Shown one piece after another: positions 5,885 to 32,439 of a DNA stretch of 32,439 nucleotides (within the stretch, counting starts at the first letter, position 1; each line of letters starts with the position of its first letter). Origin of the DNA: an uncultured Syntrophaceae bacterium (GTDB lineage Bacteria > Desulfobacterota > Syntrophia > Syntrophales > UBA2185); assembly GCA_903893135.1 (NCBI GenBank), contig CAITLA010000227.1, positions 1 to 32,439 of the forward strand, written 5' to 3'. The notes beneath the pieces are model-generated. The model searched no databases, was not told the DNA's origin, and saw only the letters and a program-made list of their open reading frames with translations. Both the position numbers and the translations under genes were made by a program.

Positions 5885-5913
5885 GATTTATTCCAACCCT
5901 CCTTTTATTGCGT

Positions 5914-8368: not shown

Positions 8369-8380
8369 GTGCCTGTCTCC
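8366..8380 (-). promoter_or_regulatory. Ribosome binding site and non-canonical start of hemC
   Basis: On the minus strand GGAGA occupies 8380-8376, directly after the hemA stop codon. Seven bases later comes ATT (8368-8366), in frame with hemC. No ATG, GTG or TTG occurs in this frame between the hemA stop and the conserved first beta strand of HemC. The spacing favours ATT over the CTG (8356) or ATA (8359) codons. Confidence 0.6.
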
Positions 8381-9649: not shown

Positions 9650-9653
9650 GGTG

Positions 9654-10469
9654 TTATATGAATCTATGAGCAGTTACAAAGAAGAGGCTGACCAACACAA
9701 GCGAAATCAAGAGTGCAGCAAATGCCAGCAGCGTGAAAAGCGCCGCCTTATGTCCTTTCCAGCCCATGGCGAGTCTTTGATGCAGCAGTACTGCATAAGC
9801 AAACCACGCCGCCAGCGTCCATGTCTGTTTGGGGTCCCATTGCCAGAGGCTGCCCCAGACGCTTCTCGCCCATATGGAACCCACCAGGATGCCGAGAGTG
9901 AGCAGCGAAAACCCCAGCATGAGGCACATATGATTAATCCTGTCCATGTCTGTAAGTGAAGGCAGTACCTTGCTGAAGCTGCTCACCTTCTTATTCTTTA
10001 GTAAACCTTCCTGGATGAGATACATAGCGCCCGCGCAGGTGGCCAGAGCAAAAAGGGCCTCTCCCGTTACGGAGAGTATCACGTGAACCGGCACCAGGTT
10101 GCTCTGGAGTGCAACGGGAATGGAAACATATCCTCCCAGGTCTTTCGAAGCAGCGATCATGAGCAGAAAAGTCACGGGAGAGACGAAGGCGCCCAATACC
10201 CTGGTTTTCGTCTTCAATTGGAAGGCAAGATAAATGCCGGTCATGGCCCAGGCAAAAAAGGAAATGGTCTCATGGAAGCTGATCACAGGATTCTGACCGG
10301 TTTTGATAAATCTGAATGCGAAAAACAAGGTATGGAAAGCAAAGGCTGAAGATAAAACCCATGTGGAAACTCTGGCTACTAGGACCCTTCTGATATACAG
10401 GGAGACTAAGTATCCTAAGGCGCTTAGAAGGTAAACAACAAGAGCCACCCTGAAAAAAATGATATCCAT
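9654..10469 (-). CDS. Cytochrome c assembly family membrane protein (CcsA/HemX-like)
   Basis: This 271-residue integral membrane protein has about eight hydrophobic helices. It contains the tryptophan-rich WGSLWQWDPKQTWTLAAWF segment (about residues 210-228) of the CcsA/CcmC/HemX family, which handles heme at the membrane for cytochrome c maturation. Conserved histidines sit in FHTLFF, FHETISFF and VHVILSVTG. Proteins of this size placed directly before hemA are often called HemX and are thought to influence HemA level or heme export. The full CcsA maturase partner (CcsB/ResB) is absent, so either role is possible. I chose the ATG at 10469, which overlaps the sirC stop as TGATG; a TTG at 10472 is the alternative. 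Confidence 0.85.
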   Translation of the reverse strand: MDIIFFRVALVVYLLSALGYLVSLYIRRVLVARVSTWVLSSAFAFHTLFFAFRFIKTGQNPVISFHETISFFAWAMTGIYLAFQLKTKTRVLGAFVSPVTFLLMIAASKDLGGYVSIPVALQSNLVPVHVILSVTGEALFALATCAGAMYLIQEGLLKNKKVSSFSKVLPSLTDMDRINHMCLMLGFSLLTLGILVGSIWARSVWGSLWQWDPKQTWTLAAWFAYAVLLHQRLAMGWKGHKAALFTLLAFAALLISLVLVSLFFVTAHRFI

Positions 10470-11116
10470 CAATCACCAACTGTTATATTTTCACCGGTAA
10501 TGTCGTAAATGATTTTTTTTACCTTTTCCCAGCTCTTATCTCTTATGTGCTTCAGGATGTCTGAATGTACGACCGATTCAAACAGGCGCCTGTTCTCGTC
10601 GGAGGAACGCCCCTTCACAACTAACTTTTCTCTCAGTTGTCCCATCACCTCAAGGAGGGTTTGATATTCCGTCCCGAAGTGCTGTTCCATCTCTTCCCTC
10701 AATTTCTTCGCCAGGGCCGGGCTTTTTCCTCCGGTGGATATGGCGATCAAAAGGTCTCCCTGCTTGAGGAGGGACGGGAGGACAAAATCACATTTGTCGG
10801 GGTCATCCACAATATTGACGAGTATCCCCTTATCTCTCCCATCGCGGGAGATCTCCGCGTTGACGTCATCCCGGTCCGTGGCGCCGATTACCAGGAAGGC
10901 ATCATCCATAAAGGCCTTGTCATAATCGGCATCGATGTGATTTATTCTGCCTTCTTTTTTCATCGTTTCAAGGCCGGGTGTCAGCGCCTTACCAATAACG
11001 ACGACGCTGGCCCCGGAGTCAAGAAGCCGCTCCACTTTCCTCTCGGCGACATCGCCTCCGCCCACGACTACGCATCTTCTATCTGTGATATCCAGAAATA
11101 ACGGGTAATATTTCAC
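10469..11116 (-). CDS. sirC: Precorrin-2 dehydrogenase / sirohydrochlorin ferrochelatase (CysG N-domain, Met8p type)
   Basis: This protein of about 215 residues oxidises precorrin-2 to sirohydrochlorin with NAD+, and in bifunctional members also inserts iron to make siroheme. The NAD motif is VVVGGGDVAERKV near the N-terminus, followed by NIVDDPDKCDFVLPSLLKQG with the conserved Asp, and STGGKSPALAKKLREEME. The GTG at 11116 gives the usual MKYYPLFLD beginning and has GGAAGGA with 6 bases of spacing. An ATG at 11122 is in frame but overlaps that site. It is the first gene of the heme operon as seen here and overlaps the next gene by one to a few bases. With CobA-HemD it supplies siroheme to AhbB and AhbD. 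Whether it chelates iron or only dehydrogenates cannot be told from sequence alone. Confidence 0.92.
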   Translation of the reverse strand: MKYYPLFLDITDRRCVVVGGGDVAERKVERLLDSGASVVVIGKALTPGLETMKKEGRINHIDADYDKAFMDDAFLVIGATDRDDVNAEISRDGRDKGILVNIVDDPDKCDFVLPSLLKQGDLLIAISTGGKSPALAKKLREEMEQHFGTEYQTLLEVMGQLREKLVVKGRSSDENRRLFESVVHSDILKHIRDKSWEKVKKIIYDITGENITVGD

Positions 11117-11136
11117 TGCCATTCCTTCCCAGCGAC

Positions 11137-11220
11137 TCCCCCTTTGCAAAGGGGGATTGAGGGGGATTTTGCAATGGGTTCGCTTAAATCCCCCCTGCGC
11201 CCCCCTTTCAAAAAGAGGGG
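11137..11220. repeat. Inverted pair of G/C-run palindromic repeats, copies 2 and 3
   Basis: Copy 2 (about 11137-11170) reads CCCCCTTTGCAAAGGGGG and then a G-run ending in ATTT. Copy 3 (about 11185-11220) is the same element in reverse orientation. The pair is separated by about 15 bases and can fold into one long cruciform-like structure between the divergent sirC and prmA genes. The elements match copy 1 at 3329-3365 in layout. They lie just upstream of the heme operon start codon, so they would be in or near its leader. Confidence 0.65.
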
Positions 11221-17350: not shown

Positions 17351-18985
17351 TCAAGCGAAACGCAAGAGCTGATGCTGTTGCGCCCAGTCCAGAGGTAAGT
17401 CAATCCGTTTGGTGAGTTTTTCAACGTTAAGATCGGCAGGCTGCCGCCCCGCTATGATACTCTCAGTAATGTCAGGGGCAAGAAAAGCGAGATTCATTAC
17501 CCGGGAAACATAGCTCTTGTCCACGCCTTCCCGTGATGCGATTTCAGCCATGCTGTGCACCCGTCCCGATACCAGATCATTGAACCATTTATGGGCGCGA
17601 ACAATGGTTTTCAGCAAACGCTGGTCAACTCTGGCCGGTCCGGTACCACCAATTATCAGCCGCATCTCAATTCCCCGTCGTTTTAGCTTCATCGGGATAT
17701 CGCGAATGATGGTTACAGCGTTGGCGTCCATCTCTGGTACCACCAGCGATGCCAGAGACAGCGTGAGACGTATCCCATCCTGCCGCAACTCCACGCGCTG
17801 GACGAATCTGCCGATTAAGTCTGCAGTATCGGGTTGTATCTTTGCGGCCGCATTGAGTGCAGAGGGAATGTGGTGTGCTGCGATTCCCGATTCCTGTAAC
17901 GCGGCAGTAGTGGCAACATCATCAAGGAGGATATCTAATACTGCATGCGCGATCACTTGCTCAATTTCCTGCCCCGGTAATCGCCAACCGTTTGATGAAG
18001 CATCTTTCGGGTCTGCCGCAAGGCTTTGTGAGATATAATAGCGGTAGCGCCTTCCCTTTTTATTAACGTGGACGGGTCTCAGGTGCTTGCCTGAGACGTC
18101 GAACAATTTTTTGGTTAGCGGACAGGAGGTGGCATTACGTGAACGTGTTTTATGTTCTACCGAGTTGCTGGCCATAAGCTGCTGCACCTGTTCCCATAGT
18201 TCCTGATCGATGATCGCTTCATGCTGACCTTGATGGCAGGTTCCTTTATGGCGTATCTGCCCTATATAGATCGGGTTGGAGAGAATCCCGTAGAGGATCC
18301 CCCGCGAGAATGGACAACCGCCTTTGTGTCGACGGATTTTGGAATGAATCCCCTGTCTGTCGAGATCTTCTTTAAGCAGGCGGACACATCCAAGCTCCAG
18401 GTAGCGACGGTATATATGCTGAACGGTTTGGGCTTCCTTGGCATTGATCAGCAGTTTGCGATTCTTGACGTCGTAGCCGAGTGGAACGAATCCGCCCATC
18501 CACATCCCCTTTTTCTTGGAGGCGGCAATTTTATCTCTGATACGTTCGCTGGTAACTTCCCGTTCAAACTGTGCGAAGGAGAGTAGCACATTCAGTGTGA
18601 GTCTTCCCATTGAACTAGTAGTATTGAACTGCTGTGTGACCGAGACGAATGAAACACTATGCTTATCGAAACGCTCGATGATTTTGGCGAAGTCGGCTAA
18701 TGATTTGGTCAACCGGTCCACTTTATACACGATCACTACATTTACTTTCCCGGCCTCAATATCTTCCAGCAATTGTTTCAATGCCGGGCGCTCCATATTG
18801 CCGCCACTGAATCCACCATCGTCATAGTGCGTCTTAATAGCTTGCCAACCCTCATGCTTCTGGCTGGCAATATAAGCTGTACAAGCTTCCCGCTGCGCAT
18901 GGAGGGAATTGAAATCCTGCTCGAGCCCCTCTTCTGAGGATTTGCGTGTATAGATTGCGCAGCGAAGTATTGGTTTGGTATTCAT
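17351..18985 (-). CDS. Large serine recombinase
   Basis: This site-specific recombinase has 544 residues from the ATG at 18985, which follows GGAGG closely. The resolvase catalytic domain (about 1-150) contains AIYTRKSSEEG with the nucleophilic Ser, DDGGFSGGNMERPALKQLL, VYKVDRLTKSLADF and the LSFAQFEREVTSERIRDKI long helix. A recombinase domain (about 170-270; GYDVKNRKLLIN, NPIYIGQIRHKG) follows, then a ribbon-like region whose zinc cysteines are missing (LFDVSGKHLRPVHVNKKG). A C-terminal helix-turn-helix (MAEIASREGVDKSYVSRVMNLA) closes it. This architecture belongs to the proteobacterial family found beside DUF2924 and DUF3489 genes. It lies just outside att 2, and serine recombinases do not usually target tRNA genes, so its link to the tRNA-Phe duplication is unclear. 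Confidence 0.93.
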   Translation of the reverse strand: MNTKPILRCAIYTRKSSEEGLEQDFNSLHAQREACTAYIASQKHEGWQAIKTHYDDGGFSGGNMERPALKQLLEDIEAGKVNVVIVYKVDRLTKSLADFAKIIERFDKHSVSFVSVTQQFNTTSSMGRLTLNVLLSFAQFEREVTSERIRDKIAASKKKGMWMGGFVPLGYDVKNRKLLINAKEAQTVQHIYRRYLELGCVRLLKEDLDRQGIHSKIRRHKGGCPFSRGILYGILSNPIYIGQIRHKGTCHQGQHEAIIDQELWEQVQQLMASNSVEHKTRSRNATSCPLTKKLFDVSGKHLRPVHVNKKGRRYRYYISQSLAADPKDASSNGWRLPGQEIEQVIAHAVLDILLDDVATTAALQESGIAAHHIPSALNAAAKIQPDTADLIGRFVQRVELRQDGIRLTLSLASLVVPEMDANAVTIIRDIPMKLKRRGIEMRLIIGGTGPARVDQRLLKTIVRAHKWFNDLVSGRVHSMAEIASREGVDKSYVSRVMNLAFLAPDITESIIAGRQPADLNVEKLTKRIDLPLDWAQQHQLLRFA

Positions 18986-19431
18986 GCAACCTCCTTCTTC
19001 TTCAGCCCGAAAAACAGAGGACCGGACCAACGTGCACCGGTAATGGCGCGCGCCACTTCGGAGAGCGAGCGGTAGCGTTTGCCATTACACCGCACACCGT
19101 CCTCCATTATGATTACCTCATAAGTTACGCCATGCCATTCACGCAACAGCCGTGTGCCGGGTCTAATGCTGATTATCTGCTGCTGTCTCGATACATTGTC
19201 TTCTGCAGCCTTTTCCAGAAAGCGGCGAGTGGCAGGTTTCACTCCGCCCAATTCCTGTTCCTGCATACGGTGAGCGATGGCATGCATCAGAAAATTATTC
19301 CGGACGCCGACAGGTGGTTCTGTACCATATAGAGTCCGCCATTTTGCTATTAGCGCGTTGCGGTCAAGGGCAGGAATGCCTTCTAATTCGCTGGCAAGCC
19401 TTCGCGTATTGAGGGATGAACGATGCTTCAT
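18982..19431 (-). CDS. DUF2924 domain protein
   Basis: This 149-residue protein has the DUF2924 pattern: an N-terminal helical segment with LIAKWRTLYGTEPP, then FLMHAIAHRMQEQELGG, and a C-terminal region with GTRLLREWHGVTYEVII and GKRYRSLSEVARAITG. The last segment resembles small DNA-interacting RAMA/SAB-like domains. Its stop overlaps the recombinase start in an ATGA junction, and its ATG overlaps the stop of the DUF3489 remnant in the same way, so the three were one operon. Function is unknown; constant linkage to serine recombinases suggests an accessory role such as directionality or regulation (inference). Confidence 0.85.
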   Translation of the reverse strand: MKHRSSLNTRRLASELEGIPALDRNALIAKWRTLYGTEPPVGVRNNFLMHAIAHRMQEQELGGVKPATRRFLEKAAEDNVSRQQQIISIRPGTRLLREWHGVTYEVIIMEDGVRCNGKRYRSLSEVARAITGARWSGPLFFGLKKKEVA

Positions 19432-19559
19432 ATGGTTCGGGCAGCGATACGATAGATTCGCCCACGCTCTTCTTTTTCAGAGGCGACGGAGAGTCCTAGG
19501 CGCTTTTTCAATACACCGGACATCATTCCGCGGACACTATGCCGTTGCCAGTCGTGAGT
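19428..19559 (-). pseudogene. C-terminal remnant of a DUF3489 protein
   Basis: On the minus strand an open frame ending at 19428 encodes DWQRHSVRGMMSGVLKKRL and then GLSVASEKEERGRIYRIAA, the C-terminal signature of DUF3489 proteins that usually precede DUF2924 and the recombinase. The frame runs up only to an in-frame stop at 19599, no start codon fits, and the typical N-terminal half is missing. The TGA overlaps the DUF2924 ATG. The break in homology near 19557 marks a deletion or insertion junction; the divergent methyltransferase frame overlaps it. Confidence 0.8.
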
Positions 19560-20768
19560 GAAGAAAATACCAAATCTATTTCTCGGCTTGTCGAGCGATT
19601 AGAGCATCTATCTGCAGCTAGTGCCAATTTCGATTTCCTCCTGATTGATCTTCGTCATCATATTCAGACCCCAAAACATCTTTCAGAATTTATCAGAAGA
19701 CATGCACGGCGTTTTTTTTCAATAGTGCGTCGTCTACTTATTTCTGATCGGTATTGTTGTATTTTAGTCAAGACACAGGGTCCGGGCGGCGAAGGCTTCC
19801 CTCTTCCTTGGTCAGTAGCACTCAGTGCACGGGATTGCCTGAAACTGCGCGATGAGAAAATAGCACTAGAAGAAGATACGGGCCGCGTTTTTTATTGTTT
19901 GATTTTTCAATCAACAGACGATTCACGTCCTGCAAGTCATTTAGTTCCTTCTTCACTCAAAACTACCATCCCTGAGCAGCCCGTACCACCGTGGATTATT
20001 CCAAAACCCCCGCCACGGAAAAAAAGCGAGATTCTCCATCCAGCTAAGTATCCAGAAACTCTTGTATCGCAATTCATTGAGCTTTTCACCAAACCAATGG
20101 ATAATGTCCTGGATCCAATGGTTGGTACTGGCAGCACGGTAATTGCGTCAATAAGATCGGGACGAAATGGCTACGGTGTGGACCTCATTCCCAGCTTTGT
20201 GGAAATTGCACAAAGGCGTGTTGAAGCTGAATCACATCAGACGCTTTTTGCCGACTTCTCTAAGCAGGCACAAGGTTTTATTTTCCAAGGTGATGCTACG
20301 CGTTTGAATGAAATAACTGCTCTGCAAGGAATTTCATTTCACTATGCTATCACAAGTCCACCATATTGGTCTATGTTGACAAACCCCGGAAGCGAGAATC
20401 AGGAAGCAAGGCGAAAGAAGAATCTACTGTTGGCATATTCTGATGAAGAAAAAGATTTAGGCAACATATGGGACTATGAACGATTCCTAGATATGCTCGA
20501 ATCTGTTTACTTACAGGTTGCACAAAAACTGAAACCGGGAGGCCACCTAACGGTTGTTGTTAAGAACGTCAAGCGCGAGCACATCGTTTATCCACTAGCA
20601 TGGGATTTGACTGCGCGATTGTGTAGTAGAAATAATGCCTATGAATATGTCGGCACAACCCTATGGTGCCAAGATGATGTGGGCATCAAACCTTTTGCAG
20701 TGGGTATACACTGGGTCAGCAACACATTGCACCACTATTGCTTGCACTTTAGAAAACGAAAAGTTTAA
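19539..20768 (+). CDS. DNA methyltransferase (N4-cytosine or N6-adenine type), possibly N-terminally clipped
   Basis: This 409-residue protein has a SAM-binding motif I, DPMVGTGST (192-200), preceded by the motif X-like HPAKYPETLVSQFI and followed by GRNGYGVDLIPSFVEIAQRR. The catalytic motif IV is TSPPYW (272-277); Ser-Pro-Pro-Tyr favours N4-cytosine methylation. Motif I before IV differs from the common beta order. Residues 31-125 resemble the last part of a second methyltransferase fold: YERFLDMLESVYLQVAQKLK and later residues align loosely with HLSEFIRRHARRFFSIVRRL. This suggests a missing N-terminal half. No ribosome binding site precedes the ATG at 19539, which lies inside the DUF3489 remnant; the GTG at 19554 is an alternative start. 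No restriction endonuclease is next to it. Confidence 0.8.
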   Translation: MPLPVVSEENTKSISRLVERLEHLSAASANFDFLLIDLRHHIQTPKHLSEFIRRHARRFFSIVRRLLISDRYCCILVKTQGPGGEGFPLPWSVALSARDCLKLRDEKIALEEDTGRVFYCLIFQSTDDSRPASHLVPSSLKTTIPEQPVPPWIIPKPPPRKKSEILHPAKYPETLVSQFIELFTKPMDNVLDPMVGTGSTVIASIRSGRNGYGVDLIPSFVEIAQRRVEAESHQTLFADFSKQAQGFIFQGDATRLNEITALQGISFHYAITSPPYWSMLTNPGSENQEARRKKNLLLAYSDEEKDLGNIWDYERFLDMLESVYLQVAQKLKPGGHLTVVVKNVKREHIVYPLAWDLTARLCSRNNAYEYVGTTLWCQDDVGIKPFAVGIHWVSNTLHHYCLHFRKRKV

Positions 20769-22330: not shown

Positions 22331-23254
22331 TCAGAAATTTACTTTGTCGATTCCTTTGAGATGCAGGATCTTTCTTGCTTCGTCGGGTGTGGCTGGTTCT
22401 ATTCCAAGCTCACGTGCTATGCGCGCGATCTTGGCGACCTGTTCCGCATTACTCTTCGCCATCCGGCCTTTATCGAGATAAAGGTTATCCTCAAGACCTA
22501 CGCGGACATTTCCGCCTATAAGCAGGGACTGCGTGCAGATGGGAAATTGCGCGCGGCCCGCCACGCAGACGGAAAATTCAAAATCACCGATCTGCTTCTT
22601 CGCATAATCGACAAGGAACAGCAGATTTTCCGAACTCGGCGTGATGCCGCCCAGGACGCCCATAACGAACTGTATGTAAACTGGCTTCTTGACATATCCG
22701 GCTTCGATCATGAAGGCGACATTGTTTACCATACCGGAATCGTAAATCTCAAACTCCGGTTTCGTTCCGTTCTCGGCGAAAATCGCGCAATATTCCTTCA
22801 TGGACTTAAAGGTGTTCGCAAAAATAAAGTCTTCAGTCATACCCAGATATTGTTTCTCCCAGGGATATTTGTATTCCTTGAATCTGGGGATCACGTGGAA
22901 AAGAGCGAAATTGATGGACCCCGCATTGAAGGAGGCCAGTTCCGGTTTATACAGGGTAACGGGCGCCACCCGCTGTTCGACGGTCATACCCAGTCCTCCG
23001 CCGGTTGTGATGCAGACGACAATGTTGCACCGGCTCTTTATCTTCGTGATAATCTGTTTCATCAGTTCCACGTCCGGCACAGGCATACCCGTCTCCGGGT
23101 TGCGCGCGTGGACGTGGCACACGGCAGCGCCTGCCTCGTAAGCCCGCACGGCTTCGTCCGCGATCTGCTGAGGCGTGATGGGCAAATATTCCGACATCGT
23201 CGGGGTGTGAATACTTCCGGTAATGGCCGCGGTGATAACAGCTTTTTCTTTCAT
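22331..23254 (-). CDS. Beta-keto acid cleavage enzyme (BKACE, DUF849 family)
   Basis: This 307-residue TIM-barrel zinc enzyme exchanges acyl groups between a beta-keto acid and acetyl-CoA, giving acetoacetate and a new acyl-CoA. The prototype is 3-keto-5-aminohexanoate cleavage enzyme (Kce). The zinc ligands are His47 and His49 in CHVHARNPETG, with the later Glu in NVRVGLEDNLYL. PASFN-like (ELASFNAGS) and MGVLGGITPS are other family motifs. Start ATG at 23254 has AGGAG about 9 bases upstream. It shares the strand with the acyl-CoA dehydrogenase upstream (about 93 bases apart). In this setting it may remove a two-carbon unit or activate an intermediate; the actual keto acid is unknown. Confidence 0.9.
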   Translation of the reverse strand: MKEKAVITAAITGSIHTPTMSEYLPITPQQIADEAVRAYEAGAAVCHVHARNPETGMPVPDVELMKQIITKIKSRCNIVVCITTGGGLGMTVEQRVAPVTLYKPELASFNAGSINFALFHVIPRFKEYKYPWEKQYLGMTEDFIFANTFKSMKEYCAIFAENGTKPEFEIYDSGMVNNVAFMIEAGYVKKPVYIQFVMGVLGGITPSSENLLFLVDYAKKQIGDFEFSVCVAGRAQFPICTQSLLIGGNVRVGLEDNLYLDKGRMAKSNAEQVAKIARIARELGIEPATPDEARKILHLKGIDKVNF

Positions 23255-23347
23255 CTCTACCTGCTCCTTTTCAAATTGTCATGTTAACTGGACGAAATTC
23301 CCGCTAATCTTATCGTTTATTTAAACTTCGGACGAGTATCTATAATT

Positions 23348-24613
23348 TTACCAGCCCTTAATCCACATTTCGTCATCTTCGTAGACTTTTTCATCGTCCT
23401 TGTCGGCGTCCTCAGCATCTATCTCGATCATGCGGCCGGGATTGGCGTCTTTGAGGATCTCCCGATAGAACTCATGCTGGATGAGAAGGTTCATAATATC
23501 ATTTGTCCCCGTCCATATCTGGATGAGACGGGCGTCCCGCACCATCTTCTCAATAGGGAATACGCTCGTGTAGCTGATCCCCCCGACGATCTGCATAGCC
23601 AGATTGCAGACATCCCAGGCGGCATCGGTGGCGCATTTTTTTGCTTCGCTCACCATCCTCCGGGCGGTGGGCATACCGGCATCGACGCTCTTGGCCGCTG
23701 CAATTGTGAGGGAGCGGGCCGCATCCAGTTGCGTGATGGCATCGGCGACTTTAAAACTGACTCCCTGGAAGTTTCTGATCTTCTGGCCGAAGGCCTTCCT
23801 GCGGTCGCTGTATCTCACGGCCACTTCGAGGGCGCCGCGTCCCATTCCCAGCGAGGCGCCTGCCGAGGTCAATCGTTCGGGAATCATCATAGTGTTGAAG
23901 ATATTTGCGCCTTCGTTGAGCCCACCAATCAGGTTTGAAGCGGGAACTTTGACATCCTTGAAAATGAGACGTCCTGTTCCACCGCCTCTGGTGCCCAGGA
24001 GCTTGTACAGGTACTTTGCCTCCACCCCCTCCCGTTCTTTTTCAATCAGAATGAGGCTGATCCTCTCATGAGGTTTGCCCTGCGGATTGGTGTTGCAGTA
24101 GACGAGAAAGAAGTCGGCGCCATCTGCGGCAACAACGAAACGCTTCTGTCCCTTGACGGTAAAATATCCATCTTTCAATTCCGCGCTGGTCGTTGCACCA
24201 AAAAAGTCGGACCCGCCGCGGGGTTCGGTCAGGGCCTCGGCGGATATGAGATCTCCCTTCAGCATCGGTTTGAGAAACTTTTCCTTCTGTTCTTCCGTCC
24301 CATAGACATTCAACGCTTCGCCCACAATGGAAGGCATGGCGAAGGCGCAACCGAGGGCGGTGCCCAGAACGCCGATTTCCTCCAGTGCCGCAATTTCGCC
24401 TGTCCAGGACATACCGCGGCCACCGTACTTTTTGGGAAATCTCAGACCCAGGAGATTTCTATTGCCCAAATCCTTCACGTACTCCCGTGGGTAGCGAATC
24501 TCATCCCGGTCCATTTTCTTGAGAAGATCCGGCGATACGTTGTTCTTGACGAAATCCCGGACCTCTTGTTTCAAGGCCAACTCTTCTTTGGTTAAGAATA
24601 CATCTTGAAGCAT
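23348..24613 (-). CDS. Acyl-CoA dehydrogenase (first of three)
   Basis: This flavoprotein of 421 residues should oxidise an acyl-CoA at alpha-beta and pass electrons to electron-transfer flavoprotein. The FAD/substrate motif is ALTEPRGGSDF (127-137); C-terminal family motifs are RKAFGQKIRNFQ and QIVGGISY. The MCAD/SCAD catalytic Glu (usually in YEGT) is replaced in IWTGTNDIM. A Glu is found instead at residue 246 in PERLTSAGASLG, the position used by isovaleryl-CoA and long-chain dehydrogenases. The C-terminal tail is unusually acidic (about residues 398-417). The ATG at 24613 has AGGAG about 8 bases upstream. It is the first gene of a minus-strand pair with BKACE. Confidence 0.92.
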   Translation of the reverse strand: MLQDVFLTKEELALKQEVRDFVKNNVSPDLLKKMDRDEIRYPREYVKDLGNRNLLGLRFPKKYGGRGMSWTGEIAALEEIGVLGTALGCAFAMPSIVGEALNVYGTEEQKEKFLKPMLKGDLISAEALTEPRGGSDFFGATTSAELKDGYFTVKGQKRFVVAADGADFFLVYCNTNPQGKPHERISLILIEKEREGVEAKYLYKLLGTRGGGTGRLIFKDVKVPASNLIGGLNEGANIFNTMMIPERLTSAGASLGMGRGALEVAVRYSDRRKAFGQKIRNFQGVSFKVADAITQLDAARSLTIAAAKSVDAGMPTARRMVSEAKKCATDAAWDVCNLAMQIVGGISYTSVFPIEKMVRDARLIQIWTGTNDIMNLLIQHEFYREILKDANPGRMIEIDAEDADKDDEKVYEDDEMWIKGW

Positions 24614-25266
24614 AGCAATTCTCCTTTCGTAAAATGTGATGCAGTTGTAAAAAGTTCGTTTTCACTTTTCTTGAGAATCCCATGGAGAAAGAAAAGCGAT
24701 TTTTTTTCTCCAATGGCAGGAATTAGGATTTGACACAGCCTGCGGGATATTATAGCTTTCATCCCTGATGATTTGAGGTTTTATAAATTCCAAGGGACGA
24801 TCATGAAGTCGGACGACAGAGGCGATTTTGTGATTCCTCCCCTCAAATAAGGCGGACCGGAGGATATTATCCGGGTTCGCTACTGCTTTACCTGCCGGGA
24901 GACATTCCCTGGCGATCACGAGAGCATCTTTATAATTGTTTGGCAAATGTAGGGACGTAAGCTTCTTAGACATTTCTTCTTAGCATCTGATTTTGAAGGG
25001 GATGATTGCTCGTTAAAAACTCTTAAGACATCGCCTGAGATTTATACTTCAGTTTGTTTTGAAAGTCAAACCGTGGCGTCAAACTATCAGGAATTTCCGA
25101 ATAAGAATGCCCGTCGCTTTGGTTATGGCCATAAAAATGGTGAATATCAAAGCGTTGGACTGGTACAGGCGCGTGGGTGCGTCGCTTGCTGCCTCTATTC
25201 TGTGAAATGCCTGAAGATACATTTTTGCCCGCATTTAATCGTTAATCGGAACAAGGGAGGATGAGG
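24614..25266. other. Divergent spacer between acyl-CoA dehydrogenase operons
   Basis: These 650 bases separate the minus-strand dehydrogenase/BKACE pair from the plus-strand operon and should hold both promoters. I see a long hairpin (24680-24716) and no clear sigma-70 pair. A 103-codon minus-strand frame (24662-24973) has only a weak ribosome binding site, no recognisable family and a C-terminus made by the hairpin; I do not call it a gene. A 63-codon plus-strand frame (25073-25264) is similarly unsupported. Confidence 0.55.
24680..24716. other. Long hairpin in the leader of the first acyl-CoA dehydrogenase
   Basis: CCATGGAGAAAGAAAA and the A/T-rich complement to 24716 pair over about 16 positions, with one bulged A, one G-T pair and a GCGA loop. 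On the minus strand it is roughly 65 bases before the dehydrogenase ATG. It could act as an attenuator or terminator of upstream transcription; the pairing is seen, the function is inferred. Confidence 0.5.
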
Positions 25267-26427
25267 ATGGATTTTGATCTGAGTGATGAGCACCGGATGC
25301 TGAGGGACAGCATTGCTAATTTTGCGGAGAAGGAATTAAAACCCATTGCCGAAGAGATCGATCGTGATGACCACTGGCCGGAAGGGCTCTGGCAGAAGCT
25401 CGGTGATTTGGGGATTATGGGAATTACGGTAGACCCTCTATATGGAGGGGCGGGCGCAGATATTTTATCGGCCGCTTTGGTCGGTGAAGAATTGGCGAAG
25501 GCCTCCGCGGCGGTCGCTCTGTCCTGGGGCGCCCATGCGAACCTGTGCTGCAACAATCTGAACAGCCATGCCAGTGACGAGCAAAAGAGAAAGTACCTGC
25601 CTCCTCTTTGTACGGGTCAGCATATCGGCGCTTTGGGATTGACAGAGCCCAATGCCGGTTCCGATGCGGTGAATATTCAGACAACGGCGAAACGAAACGG
25701 GGATCATTACGTAGTGAACGGAACCAAGATGTTTATTACCAATGGACCCATCGCTAACACTATCGTGCTCTATACGAAGACCGATAAAGGGTCTGGTGCC
25801 AAGGGGATTACAGCATTTATCCTGGATACGAAATTTCCGGGATTTTCCGTGTCCAAGAAATTGAACAAGGTCGGCAATCGGGGATCGGCGACAGGCGAGC
25901 TAATACTTCAGGATTGCATCATCCCTGCGGAAAATATCATCGGCGAGGAGAATAAGGGCATTGCGGTGATGATGGGGGGATTGGATGTAGAGCGGGCATT
26001 TTTCGGAACCTATGCCCTGGGCATCGCGGAGGCTGCCTTTGCGGAATCGATTAAATACGCGAAGGAAAGGGTGCAGTTCGGAAAACCCATTGCGTCGTTC
26101 CAGATGATACAGCAGAAACTCGCGGATATGTATACAGGGATCGAGGCCGCGCGCCTGCTCTGTTACAAGGCAGCTATTCTGGCCGATTCGGCGAAGAAGG
26201 GCGGAAAGGGAACAGCCGTCCATCAGATTTCTGCTGCTGCCATTCTGTTTACGGCCGAGATGGCCTGCCGGGTCTGTGAAGAGGCCGTTCAGATTCACGG
26301 AGGATACGGGTATTGCATGGAATATCCGGTGCAGCGGTTCTGGCGTGATGCAAAGCTGGGGACCATCGGGGGGGGAACGTCAGAGATCAGAAGGCTCATC
26401 GTGGCGCGCGAAATTCTCGGCATGTGA
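25267..26427 (+). CDS. Acyl-CoA dehydrogenase (second of three, isovaleryl-CoA dehydrogenase-like)
   Basis: This protein of 386 residues has the acyl-CoA dehydrogenase motifs LGLTEPNAGSDA, TKMFITNGP, RVQFGKPIASFQ and QIHGGYGY. The candidate catalytic Glu is in LDVERAFFGTYALG (isovaleryl-CoA dehydrogenase position), while the MCAD position is Gly (IGGGTSEIRR). I chose the ATG at 25267 rather than 25261 because GGGAGG ends immediately before 25261, leaving 6 bases to 25267. It is the first gene of an operon with MaoC, two thiolase-like proteins, DUF35 and a CoA-transferase. It is clearly paralogous to the dehydrogenase at 31343 (shared WGAHA-x-LC, KYLPPLC and YAKERVQFGKPIA). Confidence 0.93.
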   Translation: MDFDLSDEHRMLRDSIANFAEKELKPIAEEIDRDDHWPEGLWQKLGDLGIMGITVDPLYGGAGADILSAALVGEELAKASAAVALSWGAHANLCCNNLNSHASDEQKRKYLPPLCTGQHIGALGLTEPNAGSDAVNIQTTAKRNGDHYVVNGTKMFITNGPIANTIVLYTKTDKGSGAKGITAFILDTKFPGFSVSKKLNKVGNRGSATGELILQDCIIPAENIIGEENKGIAVMMGGLDVERAFFGTYALGIAEAAFAESIKYAKERVQFGKPIASFQMIQQKLADMYTGIEAARLLCYKAAILADSAKKGGKGTAVHQISAAAILFTAEMACRVCEEAVQIHGGYGYCMEYPVQRFWRDAKLGTIGGGTSEIRRLIVAREILGM

Positions 26428-26475
26428 GGCCGGCCATTTATAATAATTTCAAAAAGGGAACAGGGAGGTGCGTCC

Positions 26476-26928
26476 GTGGAGAAAAATTATTTTGAGGACT
26501 ACGCAGTAGGTGAGGTATTTGTATCACCGGGAAGGACAATTACGGAGACGGACATCGTCTTGTTTTCCGCCTTCACCGGGGACTGGCATCCCCTGCACAC
26601 CGATGTGGAATACGCGGCAAAGACACCTTTCAAGGAGAGGATCGCCCACGGCATGTTGGGGCTCGTTGTCGGTATGGCCTTGCCGTTCCGCCTGGGGCCT
26701 CATGTAGTTCTGCCGAAGAGCTTTATCGCATTTTACGGCATGGAGAACGTCCGTTTTACGGCTCCCGTGAAGATCGGCGATACCATTCGTTGCGAGGTGA
26801 AAATAAAAAGTCTCACGGAGAAAGATGCAAAGAGGGGGATTATCGAGGCGGAAAATATAATTAAGAATCAACGCAACGAGGATGTTATTGTTTACACCAC
26901 CAAGATCCTGGTTGGAAGGAAATCATAA
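26476..26928 (+). CDS. MaoC-family (R)-hydratase
   Basis: This 150-residue hot-dog-fold protein has the hydratase-2 motif with catalytic Asp36 and His41 (TGDWHPLHTD), then EYAAKTPFKERIAHGML and a C-terminal VRFTAPVKIGDTIRCEVKI strand pair. It should hydrate a 2-enoyl-CoA to a 3-hydroxyacyl-CoA. The start is GTG at 26476, with GGAGG 7 bases upstream. It lies between an acyl-CoA dehydrogenase and a thiolase-like gene, so dehydrogenation, hydration and carbon-carbon cleavage would follow in gene order. Confidence 0.92.
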   Translation: MEKNYFEDYAVGEVFVSPGRTITETDIVLFSAFTGDWHPLHTDVEYAAKTPFKERIAHGMLGLVVGMALPFRLGPHVVLPKSFIAFYGMENVRFTAPVKIGDTIRCEVKIKSLTEKDAKRGIIEAENIIKNQRNEDVIVYTTKILVGRKS

Positions 26929-26952
26929 AATAGAAAGAAAGGATATGAAGGT

Positions 26953-28095
26953 ATGGCGAAACAAGTTGCTATTGTAGCGGTTGCGCAGAATGCCGGAGCC
27001 GAATCAAAAGACAACTTCTATGACCAGGCCTACGCGGTCACGAAGGAGGTCTTGGATAAGGCGGGAATGACGAGGGACGAGATCGGCACCGTCGTCAGTG
27101 CATCGTCCGACGTCTTTCACGGCGGCATCTCCTGCGCCAATTCTTACTATTGGGAAACAACGGGGGCCTTCCTGAAGAACGCCTCACGTCAGGACGGAGA
27201 ATCCCTTTTCGCCCTATTTTACGGCGCCATGCGGATCATGACCGGCCATTATGACACGGCACTGGTCATCGGCCTCTGCAAGGGATCCGAAAATCCTCCC
27301 AACGATACATGCACGCTCATGTATGCCGATCCCTTTTATCAAAGAGGAGTGGGGCTGACGGAGACGATGGCGGCGGCCTTTCAGATGAGGCTATACATGG
27401 AAAGATACGGCATCACGGCAGAGCAGTGCGCCAAGGTGGCTGTAAAGAATCTCGGAAATGGCCTGAGAAACCCCTATGCCCATAAGAAGGGACGCTATAC
27501 GGTCGATGACATTCTGGGGTCAGAAAGGCTGATCGATCCTTTGACCGCTCTTCAGGTAGCGCCGAAATCAGAGGGAATGGTAGCGCTCATTCTCGCCTCG
27601 GCGAAAAAGGCAAAGGAAATAGCGGGCAAACCCGTATGGATTAAGGGTTTCGGAAGCTCTTTGGACAATTATTATCTTGGTGACCGTGACCTCTTGAACG
27701 GGCAATTGAAGAATGCCGCGGACAGGGCCTACAAAATGGCTGGTATCACTGATCCACAGAAAAAGATCGACGTGGCAGAAATCACGGAACCCTATGCCTT
27801 CCAGGAACTGCTCTGGTACGAGGGATTAGGATTTTGCGGAAAAGGAGAGGGCGGTCGTCTGATCGACAGCGGCTTCACCGGGATGAACGGGCAGATCCCC
27901 GTCAATCCCTCCGGCGGCGTTTTGGCTAACAATCCCTACGTGTCGAGAGGACTCCAACGCGTCGTGGAGGCTGTTCTGCAAATCAGAGGCGAGGCCGGAG
28001 AGAGGCAGGTTCCCAAGACTGTAAAGACGGCCTTAGCGCACGGTACTCACGGCTATGCCGGCCAGTGTCACGCCGTGGCCATTTTAGGCAGATAG
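26953..28095 (+). CDS. Thiolase-like protein A, catalytic Cys missing
   Basis: This 380-residue protein has the SCP2/lipid-transfer thiolase fold. By alignment with the next gene, the nucleophilic Cys of thiolases is replaced by Gln80 (KNASRQDGESL). The usual His of the HDxF motif is replaced (EITEPYAFQEL, giving TEPYAF), and the GHPxGATG loop reads NNPYVSRG. Thus the classical Cys-His-His thiolase chemistry cannot run in this subunit. It probably forms a heteromer with the next protein, either as a structural partner or with a different, retro-aldol type chemistry. It starts 24 bases after MaoC with AAAGGA about 9 bases upstream. Confidence 0.88.
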   Translation: MAKQVAIVAVAQNAGAESKDNFYDQAYAVTKEVLDKAGMTRDEIGTVVSASSDVFHGGISCANSYYWETTGAFLKNASRQDGESLFALFYGAMRIMTGHYDTALVIGLCKGSENPPNDTCTLMYADPFYQRGVGLTETMAAAFQMRLYMERYGITAEQCAKVAVKNLGNGLRNPYAHKKGRYTVDDILGSERLIDPLTALQVAPKSEGMVALILASAKKAKEIAGKPVWIKGFGSSLDNYYLGDRDLLNGQLKNAADRAYKMAGITDPQKKIDVAEITEPYAFQELLWYEGLGFCGKGEGGRLIDSGFTGMNGQIPVNPSGGVLANNPYVSRGLQRVVEAVLQIRGEAGERQVPKTVKTALAHGTHGYAGQCHAVAILGR

Positions 28096-28107
28096 GGGGT
28101 GGAGCAT

Positions 28108-29274
28108 ATGGGACGACCAGTAGCCATAATAGGTGTAGGACAGACAAAACACGGAAGAAGAATGGATGTCAGTTATCCGGAGCTCGTGAGAGAAGCCGTC
28201 ATGGCTGTGTTTAATGAAACGGGACTGACGCCAAATGACATAGATGGAGTTGTATCCGGTACCATGCCTTCCATGATGGAAGGGATCGCCCTGACGCATT
28301 TCTATTTTGCCGATGCCATGCAGGCCGCGGGAAAGCCGATTATGAAGACAGAGACCTGCGGATCGACGGGGGTATCCATCGCCCATACGGCCTATTACTG
28401 GGTCGCATCAGGCATGGCCGACCTTGTCCTGGCCGTGGGTCATGAAAAGATGAACGAGGGGAACAGCCAGGCAACCATGACGACGGTGGCCGAGCCATTC
28501 TATCAGAGGTATTTCATATCCGGCGCGCCAGGTGTTTTTTCCATGCAGTCCCAGATGTGGATGGACCGCTATAATATACCGGAAGAGAAAATACGCGATG
28601 CCGCCGCCTTCATATCGGTTACCCATCATGACAGCGCCTTCGACAACCCTTATGCGCACATCAAGATGAGGGTCACCATGGACGAGGTGAAAAATGCGCG
28701 TATCATTACCTATCCGGTTCGTCTCCTCGATGTATGCCCGAACTCTGACGGCGCCTGTGCGGTCATCTTCGCTTCCAGGGATATGGTGAAGAAGCTGGGG
28801 CGAAAGCCGGCGTGGGTCAAGGGTGTCGGCTACCGGGGTGAAGAGTATTTCTTCGGCGACAGCGACAAGGTGGTCTGGGAAAGCGCGATCCAGGCGGCAA
28901 AGCAGGCTTACGACCAGGCAGGAATAAAAAACCCACGAAAGGAACTGGATGTGGCAGAGGTCTACAATCCCTTTACATTCCAGGAAATGCTTTTCTACGA
29001 ATGCTTCGGGTTTTGCGAACCGGGAGAGTCACCGGACCTCGTGCTGAAGGGAACCTTCTCGAGGAAAGGGGAGCTCCCCTGCGATCCTTCCGGCGGTACC
29101 TTATGCACGAACCCCATCGGGGCGACGGGTCTCATCCGGGTTGCCGAGGCGGCCCTGCAGGTGACAGGCAAGGCCGGAGATCATCAGATACCCAAGGCGA
29201 AATTGGCGCTCTCCCATGCGATGGGAGGCGTGGATCAATTCAACGGCATTATGATTCTCGGATCAAAGCTATAG
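28108..29274 (+). CDS. Thiolase-like protein B (lipid-transfer/SCP2 type), Cys retained
   Basis: This 388-residue thiolase-fold protein is paralogous to the preceding one. The nucleophile-position Cys84 is kept (KTETCGSTG). The HDxF motif reads VYNPFTFQEM (His to Asn), and the GHP loop reads TNPIGATG (His to Asn), so the acid/base residues differ from standard thiolases. SHAMGGVDQFNG closes the fold. I chose ATG at 28108, with GGGGGTGGAG in front; a GTG at 28099 is in frame. The following DUF35 gene is the usual partner of such proteins, as in BbsAB, archaeal acetoacetyl-CoA thiolase and Ltp2-ChsH2. It may therefore be a thiolase or an aldolase. Confidence 0.88.
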   Translation: MGRPVAIIGVGQTKHGRRMDVSYPELVREAVMAVFNETGLTPNDIDGVVSGTMPSMMEGIALTHFYFADAMQAAGKPIMKTETCGSTGVSIAHTAYYWVASGMADLVLAVGHEKMNEGNSQATMTTVAEPFYQRYFISGAPGVFSMQSQMWMDRYNIPEEKIRDAAAFISVTHHDSAFDNPYAHIKMRVTMDEVKNARIITYPVRLLDVCPNSDGACAVIFASRDMVKKLGRKPAWVKGVGYRGEEYFFGDSDKVVWESAIQAAKQAYDQAGIKNPRKELDVAEVYNPFTFQEMLFYECFGFCEPGESPDLVLKGTFSRKGELPCDPSGGTLCTNPIGATGLIRVAEAALQVTGKAGDHQIPKAKLALSHAMGGVDQFNGIMILGSKL

Positions 29275-29291
29275 GAAACAGGGAGGATGAA

Positions 29292-29756
29292 ATGGAAGCG
29301 AAAGAATACAGGACATTAAAAACAGAAATACGTCTGCCATATGAGCTGGCATACGGTGCTACGTGGACACGCTTTTTCGAAGGTCTCAAAAATAAGACGA
29401 TCTTTGGAACGAAGTGTACGAAGTGTGAACGTATCCTCGTTCCGGCCCGCAGCTTTTGTCCACGCTGCTTTGTTGATGCCGAAGAGTGGGTGGAGGTCTC
29501 ACAGGTAGGTACTTTAATTGCCTGGTGCTACACGAATTATAAATACTTTGGGATGCCCACAGAACCTCCCTTTATCGGGTCGCTCATCAGGCTGAACGGA
29601 ACGGACGTAAATTTTCTCCACCTCATGGGAGGTTTCGATCTCAACAATTTTGATGAGGTCAAAAAAACAATAAAGAGCGGGATGAAGGTGGAGGCAGTCT
29701 GGAGCGATGACAGAAAAGGACACATTATGGACATCAAGTACTTTAGACCTCTGTAA
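29292..29756 (+). CDS. DUF35 zinc-ribbon / OB-fold protein
   Basis: This 154-residue protein has a rubredoxin-like zinc ribbon with Cys42-x2-Cys45 and Cys56-x2-Cys59 (KCTKCERILVPARSFCPRC), followed by an OB fold (VSQVGTLIAWCYTNY, PPFIGSLIRLNGTD, GMKVEAVW). DUF35 proteins bind thiolase-like partners and are thought to channel acyl-CoA between active sites. Start ATG at 29292 has GGGAGG 5 bases upstream. The frame is open upstream into the thiolase gene, but that extension is a shadow. It is placed 17 bases after thiolase-like protein B. The N-terminal 30 residues before the ribbon contain an amphipathic helix typical of the family. Confidence 0.92.
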   Translation: MEAKEYRTLKTEIRLPYELAYGATWTRFFEGLKNKTIFGTKCTKCERILVPARSFCPRCFVDAEEWVEVSQVGTLIAWCYTNYKYFGMPTEPPFIGSLIRLNGTDVNFLHLMGGFDLNNFDEVKKTIKSGMKVEAVWSDDRKGHIMDIKYFRPL

Positions 29757-29920
29757 CGGGAAGGGGATTTCGTACTGTATATTGGGCAAGAACATGTGTG
29801 TGCATGAAGAAAAATCGTAAGAAAGGTGGTGATTGTGCAAAGGTCGGTCAGAGACGGCATCTAGCAGGATAAGAGGAAACATTACGGAAACATAAAAATA
29901 GAGAAAAAAGGGGGAATATT

Positions 29921-31252
29921 ATGAGTTGGCAGGATTATTATAAGAGTCGAGTAATGTCGGCGCAGGACGCGGCGAAGATCCTTCAGTCAGGAGATTGTTT
30001 CTGGTTTCCGCTGTTGATGGGTCAGCCGTCCATGCTCATTCCGGACGCCATTGCAGACAGGAAAGATGAACTCAAAGATGTGGAGTGGATCACGTGCCTG
30101 ACCTTGAGACCATACAAGCTTTTCAAACCCGAATACCGTGAGACATTCACATTTCTCAGCGGATTTTACAGCACCCCGCATATGCAGCAGATGGCCGCCT
30201 CGGAATGGTCCAACTTTATTCCATACCAGAGTTCAGACGCCGGTGTGAAATACTCGCATAGAAAGCGCATTTACAAGCGACGCACGGGCATCATCACCCA
30301 GGTCACCCCACCGGACGAACACGGATACGTCAATCTTGGCCTGGATACCTTCTATACAGAAGCTGTTATGGACCAGAGCGAGTGGGTCATTGCCGAAGTC
30401 AATCCCAACATGCCGAGAACTTATGGCCAGACGAACTTCCATGTCTCGAGATTTACCGCCTTCGTCGAGAACCCCAACCCCATTATCGCCGTTCCCACGC
30501 CCCCGGCGACCGACCTCGAGGTTAAAATGGCACAGAACGTGGTGGCTCTCCTGAAGGACAGAGACTGCATCCAGGTCGGCATCGGCGCCGTACCGGCCAT
30601 GATCAGCAATCTTCTTGAAAATTCGGGCCTTAAAGACATGGGCATTCATACGGAGATGATGCCAGCCGGGACCCACAAGCTTGTTGAGAAGGGGGTTGTC
30701 ACCTGCAAGTACAAAAAGGTCAATCCCGGCAAGATCGTTCTGGCCTTTACCCTGGGCGATAAGGAACTCTATGACTGGATAGCGAACAACCCCATGTGCG
30801 AGTTCCGGCCGACCTCCTATGCCAACTATATCCCCGTGATCGCCCAAGAGGACAACATCGTAGCCATCAACGGGTCCATCGAGGTGGATCTCACCGGTCA
30901 GGTCGTCTCGGAGTCCGTCGGCAATCTCATGAGAACGGGTACAGGCGGCCAGCTCGATTTTGTGATCGGTGCTTTCTGGTCCAAGGGCGGCCGGGCGATC
31001 AATCTGGTGCCCGCCACGACCATGAACGACACCGTATCACGAATCGTCCCCTACATTGCACAGGGGGCTCGCGTGACGGTTCCCCGCCATTATACGGGAT
31101 ACGTGGTCACGGAATACGGTGCCGCGGATCTCTACGGACGGTCGGAACCGGAACGGGCAGTGGAACTGATCAAGATCGCCCACCCGAAATTCCGGGAAGA
31201 GCTGGAAAAGGCCGGCCGCGAGCGGGGACTGATAAAGAAAAAGATTTTTTAG
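29921..31252 (+). CDS. Acetyl-CoA hydrolase/transferase family CoA-transferase (4-hydroxybutyrate CoA-transferase-like)
   Basis: This 443-residue protein has two CoA-transferase domains. GIGAVPAMISNLL (221-233) and GIHTEMMPAG (241-250) are the motifs of the 4-hydroxybutyrate/acetyl-CoA hydrolase group, where the Glu of the second (Glu245 here) forms the glutamyl-CoA intermediate. NGSIEVDLTGQV and GTGGQLDFVIGA follow. It would activate a carboxylic acid by moving CoA from acetyl-CoA or a product acyl-CoA, or recover acetate. Start ATG at 29921 follows AAGGGGG by 7 bases. It lies after a 164-base spacer in which I see no gene. It ends just before a strong palindrome. Confidence 0.92.
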   Translation: MSWQDYYKSRVMSAQDAAKILQSGDCFWFPLLMGQPSMLIPDAIADRKDELKDVEWITCLTLRPYKLFKPEYRETFTFLSGFYSTPHMQQMAASEWSNFIPYQSSDAGVKYSHRKRIYKRRTGIITQVTPPDEHGYVNLGLDTFYTEAVMDQSEWVIAEVNPNMPRTYGQTNFHVSRFTAFVENPNPIIAVPTPPATDLEVKMAQNVVALLKDRDCIQVGIGAVPAMISNLLENSGLKDMGIHTEMMPAGTHKLVEKGVVTCKYKKVNPGKIVLAFTLGDKELYDWIANNPMCEFRPTSYANYIPVIAQEDNIVAINGSIEVDLTGQVVSESVGNLMRTGTGGQLDFVIGAFWSKGGRAINLVPATTMNDTVSRIVPYIAQGARVTVPRHYTGYVVTEYGAADLYGRSEPERAVELIKIAHPKFREELEKAGRERGLIKKKIF

Positions 31253-31342: not shown

Positions 31343-32439
31343 ATGCATCTGGAATTCACGGAAGAACAAAAAATGCTTCGCGAGAGCGTGAAGACGTTCG
31401 CGGAAAAAGAAGTGGCGCCCCTGGCTTATGAAATAGATCGGGATGAAAGATTCCCCATCGAAAGCTTCAAGAGACTGGCTGAGATGGGTTTGTTGGGCGT
31501 TACCGTTCCTGCCGAGTACGGCGGCGCAGGAGCGGGCTATACTGAGATGTGCATTATCGGTGAGGAGCTCGGTGTAGTCTGCTGTTCCACGTCCGCGACC
31601 TGGGGCGCTCACGCGGATTTGTGCGTCGATAATATCCGCCGCAACGCCAATCGTGCACAGAAGAAAAAATATCTGCCACCCCTGTGTGACGGGAGCAAGA
31701 TCGGCGGTCTTGCCATGACGGAGCCGTCTTCCGGATCCGATGTCCTCTCCATGAAGCTCAGGGCGGAGAGAAAAGGAGATTCTTTCATCTTGAACGGATC
31801 AAAAATTTTCATCAGCAACGGTCCGGTGGGAGATATCTTTGTGATATACGCAAAAACATCTCCGGAAAAGGGGGCGCATGGGGTCTCGGCATTTATTGTA
31901 GAGAAGGAGTTCCTTGGTTTTTCGCGGGGAAAGAAATTTGAGAAGATGGGATGGCGCGGTTCGCCGACGGGTGAGCTGGTTTTCGAAGATTGCCATGTCC
32001 CGGCGGAAAATGTGTTGGGAGAGGAGAATAAAGGTGTTGATGTTCTCATGAGCGGACTCAACACGGAAAGGATTCTCCTGGGCGCCCTGTCCCTGGGTAT
32101 CTCCCGTGGGGCTTTCGAATGTGCCCTCAAATATGCGAAGGAGAGGGTCCAGTTCGGCAAGCCCATCGCAGCCTTTCAGCTGATCCAGAGCAAGCTCGCC
32201 GATATGTCGATGGAAATTGAACTCTCCAGGCTGATCACGTACAAGGGGGCCGCCATGGCGGATCGGGGCCTCAAGCGGGAGTTGAACCTGATTGCGGCTT
32301 ATGCGAAGCTCTTCACATCTGAAGCTGCCATGAGGATCACGACGGAAGCCGTGCAGATCTTAGGCGGCTACGGGTATATGAAAGAATTTCCCGTGGAGCG
32401 GATGATGCGGGATGCGAAATTGCAGACCATCGGTGGAGG
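31343..32439 (+). CDS. Acyl-CoA dehydrogenase (third), cut by window end
   Basis: The plus strand is open from ATG at 31343 (GAGGGAGAG just upstream) to the window edge, giving 365 residues; about 15-20 are missing. It has LAMTEPSSGSD, GSKIFISNGP, YAKERVQFGKPIAAFQ and QILGGYGYMKEFPVERMMRDAKL. The candidate catalytic Glu is in LNTERILLGALSLG, at the isovaleryl-CoA dehydrogenase position. It is the closest relative in the window of the dehydrogenase at 25267 and probably arose by duplication. Substrate is unknown. Confidence 0.93.
   Translation, partial: MHLEFTEEQKMLRESVKTFAEKEVAPLAYEIDRDERFPIESFKRLAEMGLLGVTVPAEYGGAGAGYTEMCIIGEELGVVCCSTSATWGAHADLCVDNIRRNANRAQKKKYLPPLCDGSKIGGLAMTEPSSGSDVLSMKLRAERKGDSFILNGSKIFISNGPVGDIFVIYAKTSPEKGAHGVSAFIVEKEFLGFSRGKKFEKMGWRGSPTGELVFEDCHVPAENVLGEENKGVDVLMSGLNTERILLGALSLGISRGAFECALKYAKERVQFGKPIAAFQLIQSKLADMSMEIELSRLITYKGAAMADRGLKRELNLIAAYAKLFTSEAAMRITTEAVQILGGYGYMKEFPVERMMRDAKLQTIGG

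Follow-up and report, generated by a model that had tools for sequence, protein, structure and literature searches.

A thiolase-like protein pair with a DUF35 partner as a candidate retro-aldolase for branched acids in an anaerobic Syntrophaceae operon

Introduction

How could a bacterium shorten an acyl chain with an operon that encodes no 3-hydroxyacyl-CoA dehydrogenase (3HCDH)? This question is raised by an operon in a 32,439-nucleotide stretch of DNA (contig CAITLA010000227.1 of assembly GCA_903893135.1; hereafter the window) from the 2.96-Mb, Syntrophaceae-type genome of an uncultured Syntrophaceae bacterium. In the order and at the coordinates given by an original prediction from the DNA letters, the operon encodes an acyl-CoA dehydrogenase, a MaoC hydratase, two thiolase-like proteins (subunits A and B), a DUF35 protein and a CoA-transferase. 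It is a catabolic operon of oxygen-independent Syntrophales bacteria, and near-identical loci are present in metagenome-assembled genomes (MAGs) of fen Syntrophaceae. We found that B carries the Gly and Tyr of steroid aldolases without the thiolase residues, which suggests that the A-B pair probably cuts branched acids by retro-aldol cleavage. For the operon as a whole, we lean slightly toward a 3HCDH-free pathway that would shorten beta-branched acids.

Catalytic residues of the thiolase-like subunits

We aligned A and B with solved family members and compared the three columns that hold the nucleophilic Cys, the HDxF His and the GHP His of thiolases. Eight ordinary thiolases, including BbsB and an archaeal acetoacetyl-CoA thiolase, have Cys/His/His in these columns, where B has Gly88, Tyr289 and Asn338. 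Across 33 homologues, no variation occurs at Gly88, Pro291, Phe292 or Asn338; Tyr289 is kept in 32 and replaced by Phe in the remaining one. By alignment, then, B lacks the whole thiolase set and has the aldolase pair (Gly plus Tyr). The original prediction would have been contradicted by pocket residues like those of ordinary thiolases; the residues of B are unlike them.

The residues of B recur in known and putative aldolases. TcLtp2 has Gly, Tyr294 and Tyr344 in the catalytic columns, an Ltp2-like protein likewise aligns with Gly/Tyr/Tyr, and Tyr294 of TcLtp2 is the catalytic base (PMC12329534). In CtSal the columns hold Gly, Tyr302 and Gln352. Tyr302 is essential there and, according to the authors of that study, Gly at the nucleophile position excludes thiolysis (PMC12329534). 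Ltp3-like proteins of Tsukamurella, Streptomyces and Rhodococcus align with Gly/Tyr/Asn, as in B. We also considered Cys87 as a thiolase nucleophile of B and rejected it: it lies one residue before the nucleophile position, which Gly88 occupies in ungapped alignments (7YVY, 6ESQ, 6HSJ, BbsB).

In subunit A the same columns hold Ser, Thr and Asn, which is neither the thiolase nor the aldolase set. The loss of both His residues in both subunits, already read from the sequence in the original prediction, is confirmed by alignment. Its claim that one subunit lost the Cys, with Gln80 in its place, stands in part: A has no Cys near Gln80 or near the aligned position, but the aligned residue is Ser, and B lacks the Cys as well. 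Its central proposal of hydration followed directly by retro-aldol cleavage is likely right, supported by the Gly and Tyr of B. On these residues, we consider retro-aldol activity of an A-B-DUF35 complex probable.

Operon layout and gene products

The operon comprises seven genes:

25261-26427, plus strand: ACAD1, an acyl-CoA dehydrogenase of the isovaleryl-CoA dehydrogenase type (closest solved relatives and motifs)
26476-26928, plus strand: MaoC-type (R)-hydratase, GTG start (PF01575, E=9e-26; GDWHPLH motif)
26953-28095, plus strand: subunit A, thiolase-like, Ltp4-like partner; TEPY and NNP, no Cys (profiles, alignment, structure model)
28099-29274, plus strand: subunit B, putative aldolase subunit of thiolase fold, Ltp3-like, GTG start; Gly88, Tyr289 (YNPF), Asn338
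29292-29756, plus strand: DUF35 protein with a zf-ChsH2 zinc ribbon (CxxC...CxxC) and OB_ChsH2_C, an OB fold (Pfam, above cut-offs)
29921-31252, plus strand: CoA-transferase, butyryl-CoA:acetate family, under the family cut-off (TIGR03948; PF13336, PF02550)
31343-32437, plus strand: ACAD2, a second dehydrogenase with a GLNxER motif; 3' end beyond the window, complete in related loci L018 and L003

The intergenic gaps from ACAD1 to the DUF35 gene are 48, 24, 3 and 17 bp. All operon genes are assigned above chance by Pfam and NCBIfam. A and B reach no NCBIfam model at its curated cut-off and so receive no named function from that database; both match Thiolase_C_1 (E=9e-34 for A, E=3e-34 for B). 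Their AlphaFold single-chain models have predicted template modeling scores of 0.88 (A) and 0.90 (B), and the top structural matches are thiolases. The solved relatives of the hydratase are MaoC/(R)-enoyl-CoA hydratases, including Shy MaoC (8VWR). The DUF35 protein, a single DUF35 of 154 aa, belongs to a family that serves known aldolases; its solved relatives are 3IRB and the DUF35 domains of Sal-Shy (9MYR), 6ESQ and Ltp2-ChsH2 (6OK1). The CoA-transferase scores 289.5 bits on TIGR03948 against a cut-off of 674.8.

Conservation of the A-B-DUF35 unit

Is this arrangement more than a chance neighborhood? A scan of 84,980 genomes gave 32 related loci, which are kin, and A-B adjacency is kept in them wherever both sides are covered. 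The A, B and DUF35 genes are contiguous and in the same order in all loci with complete sequence. Among 60 relatives, 28 hits score more than 670 bits, and an A-type gene directly adjoins 27 of these. Since A and B are kept as a pair across loci and relatives, the pair is a unit under selection. Companion genes are less uniform: counting the window, MaoC occurs in 21 loci, and BKACE and CoA-transferase genes in 13 each. The DUF35 gene, single in the window, is doubled in L019-L021.

Several related arrangements surround this unit. A large sigma-54-type activator, encoded in divergent orientation, lies just upstream of the operon in ten loci (L006, L009, L011-L015, L017, L020 and L032); it is absent from the window, which has other sequence upstream. 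One of the ten, L009, is in a Betaproteobacteria HGW-12 MAG, and its B is 86% identical to the Syntrophaceae protein; either the contig was misbinned, which is more likely, or there was a transfer. Plasmids of Rhodococcus, Streptomyces, Simplicispira, Cupriavidus and Haloterrigena (L046, L047, L049, L050, L051) also carry heteromeric thiolase-like pairs with DUF35; the B-type proteins have Gly/Tyr/Asn in the bacterial plasmids, and the haloarchaeal one has Phe for Tyr. A second, more divergent A'-B'(-DUF35') system stands beside the first at L022:14387-17306, L025:7814-10799, L026:12257-15175 and L030:6236-8637. In its B', which has YDPF, Ser stands where B has Cys87 and Asn where B has His373.

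Acyl-CoA dehydrogenases and the likely substrate

What substrate would the operon handle? The closest solved relatives of ACAD1 are isovaleryl-CoA dehydrogenases, at 385 (4O5M), 381 and 368 (1IVH) bits. Two alternative positions can take the role of the catalytic Glu in acyl-CoA dehydrogenases. ACAD1 has the Glu of GLDxER, Gly where butyryl- and medium-chain enzymes have their catalytic Glu, and IGxGTSE instead of IxEGT; ACAD2, with GLNxER, has the same Glu motif. Across the loci, Glu at the GLDxER position occurs in 34 of the 35 dehydrogenases within 2.6 kb of A-B, compared with 3 of 10 further away (Fisher p=2e-5, an optimistic value since the loci are related). The type of ACAD1 and the Glu motif of ACAD2 point to a beta-branched substrate, an assignment that could still go either way, and isovalerate in particular is an improbable choice.

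Genes for the large subunit of B12-dependent acyl-CoA mutases adjoin A-B-DUF35 systems at L022:17536-19651, L027:11723-16245 and L017:2980-4875; in L022 and L027 a small subunit is encoded separately. We rejected them as a clue to the substrate, as the models name generic mutases only. Our search of the open literature for a route from 3-hydroxy-3-methylbutyryl-CoA to acetone found nothing relevant.

Absence of a 3-hydroxyacyl-CoA dehydrogenase

The window contains no 3HCDH gene, in agreement with the original prediction for the cluster. That prediction would have been contradicted by a conserved dehydrogenase just outside the window in relatives. None is conserved: with the 3HCDH proteins of the same genome and one haloarchaeal protein as queries, no 3HCDH gene was found closer than 8 kb to A-B in any of the 32 loci. 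By itself this absence is weak evidence, because other 3HCDH genes are present in the genome. Two other points carry more weight: MaoC hydratases yield (R)-3-hydroxyacyl-CoA, which 3HCDH-type enzymes do not use, and the dehydrogenases point to a branched substrate. Hydration of a 3-methyl-2-enoyl-CoA would give a tertiary alcohol, which no dehydrogenase can oxidize, and this would explain the missing 3HCDH gene.

Proposed pathway and its alternatives

From the observed gene order, residues, conservation and protein families, we infer the following reaction steps, substrate and role for A. The CoA-transferase, judged by its family, would activate the acid. ACAD1 and ACAD2 would then desaturate the acyl-CoA to a 3-methyl-2-enoyl-CoA; for ACAD1 this follows its family and Glu, with the substrate presumed. 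MaoC would hydrate this product to a tertiary 3-hydroxyacyl-CoA. As a tertiary alcohol cannot become a ketone, retro-aldol cleavage would be the straightforward next step, which has also been proposed for C24-branched sterols. The A-B-DUF35 complex would cleave the hydroxyacyl-CoA to a ketone and acetyl-CoA, with Tyr289 of B deprotonating the 3-hydroxyl in the manner of Ltp2 and Sal. B would need no Cys because no acyl-enzyme would form. A may be a structural or pocket-shaping partner that stands in for one of the two identical subunits of an ordinary thiolase dimer, with DUF35 forming a wall of the pocket. Isovalerate would yield acetone and acetyl-CoA, and longer 3-methyl acids would yield methyl ketones.

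Several observations weigh against this pathway. In Foldseek searches with both single-chain models, thiolases rank above aldolases, and B has not kept the second catalytic residue of known aldolases: Pro291 stands in place of Sal Cys304 and Asn338 in place of Ltp2 Tyr344. In our tree, Ltp2 groups with thiolases (support 100/99) and not with B, and an approximately unbiased (AU) test rejects a single origin of the Gly/Tyr pair (p=0.003, to be read with caution given long branches). Elsewhere in the genome there are eight PF00725 matches. The nearest true 3HCDH gene lies 8.2 kb downstream of A-B, in two same-genus loci only, where it adjoins genes for a CoA ligase and an ordinary thiolase past an opposite-strand gene. 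Finally, the genome has a gene for 3-hydroxy-3-methylglutaryl-CoA (HMG-CoA) lyase adjoining a carboxyltransferase-like gene, so isovalerate could take the usual route. The most far-reaching version of our proposal is doubtful: that in strict anaerobes hydration and retro-aldol cleavage shorten beta-branched acids with no need for the carboxylase/HMG-CoA-lyase route or any 3HCDH, through a heterodimeric aldolase of thiolase fold whose Gly/Tyr site arose separately from that of Ltp2 and which releases a ketone such as acetone. In reverse, such an aldolase would offer a way to fix ketones onto acetyl-CoA.

What else could the A-B-DUF35 complex do? It might perform retro-aldol cleavage on another substrate, such as a dicarboxylic or carboxylated 3-hydroxyacyl-CoA, as an analogue of HMG-CoA lyase whose beta-keto acid product is passed on by a nearby BKACE. 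BKACE recurs in 13 loci and lies inside the operon in L023 and L019, and Ltp3-Ltp4 are proposed to act after carboxylation of the branch, leaving a carboxylate that needs re-thioesterification (PMC6678751). However, no carboxylase gene was recognized among the annotated recurrent neighbor gene clusters. In the window BKACE lies on the opposite strand, other close loci lack it, and with 428.8 bits against a cut-off of 430 on the model of a 3,5-dioxohexanoate enzyme it may belong to an unrelated pathway. We regard this explanation as unlikely.

Two further explanations seem to us less probable still. A-B-DUF35 could be a divergent thiolase that acts on 3-ketoacyl-CoA, as in BbsAB, with a 3HCDH supplied from elsewhere in the genome, where such genes exist; the structural matches of both models fit this explanation, and BbsB is the best solved relative of B by single-sequence search. 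Yet the Cys and both His residues, which BbsB keeps, have all given way to other residues in B, and A likewise lacks a thiolase triad; a thiolase would be surprising. The complex could also run in the forming direction, by aldol condensation of an acyl-CoA enolate with a ketone or aldehyde, or by PhlABC-like acyl transfer, for example in acetone assimilation. Aldol reactions are reversible, and acyl transfer is known for DUF35-thiolase complexes (PhlABC, MucABC). PhlC-type catalysis, however, appears to be Cys-based (the C88S variant of a relative has been solved, 9SKM), and B is without that Cys; the dehydrogenases, the CoA-transferase and the sigma-54-type activator adjoining the operon in ten loci look catabolic, and we give a forming role little chance.

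If retro-aldol cleavage of beta-branched acids is the true function, many genes of anaerobes, haloarchaea and actinobacteria whose only annotation is "thiolase domain-containing protein" would encode aldolase subunits, and the missing dehydrogenases in such clusters would not be gaps. Peat syntrophs would have a concrete anaerobic route for beta-branched acids. Ltp3-Ltp4, which are needed for branched sterol breakdown and are mechanistically uncharacterized, could be approached through a small homologue.

Other features of the window

On the minus strand at 22331-24613, the window encodes the BKACE, which scores just under the cut-off of the model for a 3,5-dioxohexanoate:acetyl-CoA enzyme, and a third acyl-CoA dehydrogenase. 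In the same-genus loci L003, L004, L018 and L011, an HpaB-family gene lies between these two genes; it is missing in the window. A heme biosynthesis cluster at 3374-11149 (minus strand) encodes a NirDL-like siroheme decarboxylase, a radical SAM/SPASM protein, HemB, HemC, a HemD/methylase, HemA and a precorrin-2 dehydrogenase, and looks like the alternative (Ahb) route. Genes for a large serine recombinase, a DUF2924 protein and a DNA methylase at 17351-20768 form a probable mobile element between the heme region and the acyl-CoA genes.

Comparison with known systems

How does the A-B-DUF35 unit relate to characterized enzymes? Ltp2-ChsH2 (6OK1) and Sal-Shy (9MYR) resemble it in having a thiolase fold, a DUF35 partner, Gly in the nucleophile column, Tyr in the HDxF column and a preceding MaoC hydratase. 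Unlike A-B, both use a single thiolase-like subunit as a homodimer with DUF35 fused to MaoC, and they differ from B in the second catalytic residue. The benzoylsuccinyl-CoA thiolase BbsAB (7PXP) and the archaeal thiolase-DUF35 complex (6ESQ) share with A-B the thiolase fold and a separate DUF35 subunit, and BbsAB is also anaerobic, but these enzymes keep Cys/His/His and thiolyse ketoacyl-CoA. The isovaleryl-CoA dehydrogenases 1IVH and 4O5M share the GLDxER Glu and IGxGTSE with ACAD1, whose substrate is predicted; unlike them, the dehydrogenase is present in two copies in one operon here.

The closest parallel is Ltp3-Ltp4. The original prediction called an anaerobic bacterial version with two thiolase-like subunits new, which is too strong a claim: two such subunits are not new. 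PMC6678751, citing Wilbrink 2012, describes Ltp3-Ltp4 as a heteromeric aldol-lyase for C24-branched sterol side chains, and Ltp3-like proteins have the signature of B. The M. tuberculosis locus runs Rv3520c (F420 oxidoreductase), Rv3521, ltp4, ltp3 (PMC6429209), the last three genes being Rv3521-Rv3522-Rv3523. A Tsukamurella plasmid locus (L048) has an F420 oxidoreductase gene, five genes, and then DUF35 and thiolase-like genes for 359-aa and 390-aa proteins; the longer of these shares 36% identity with B as well as its signature, with YVPF and SNP. B is 40-41% identical to proteins of the S. clavuligerus and Rhodococcus loci. The L048 and L047 proteins are called Ltp3-like by gene order and similarity rather than by tested function, and it is with proteins named in this way that the signature of B was compared.

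Our search of the open literature for DUF35 thiolases of sulfate reducers or syntrophs found no papers. Relative to the papers searched, A-B is new in its anaerobic setting and in its association with dehydrogenase and CoA-transferase genes. Hosts of Ltp3-Ltp4 are aerobic sterol degraders, whereas those of A-B are oxygen-independent. The actinobacterial DUF35 is tandem, with two OB stretches in L048 and L047 (two examples, perhaps not defining), whereas here it is single, and A and the Ltp4-like protein share only 29% identity. In our tree B groups with Ltp3-like proteins (support 71/83) and A with Ltp4-like proteins (61/60), both weakly. In both systems a DUF35 gene accompanies a pair of adjacent, divergent thiolase-like genes, the Ltp3-like proteins (L048, L047) share with B Gly/Tyr/Asn and YxPF in place of Cys/His/His, and the two systems presumably both cut beta to a branched carbon. 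Overall, A-B is an anaerobic version, probably for beta-branched acids, of a known but little-studied kind of enzyme.

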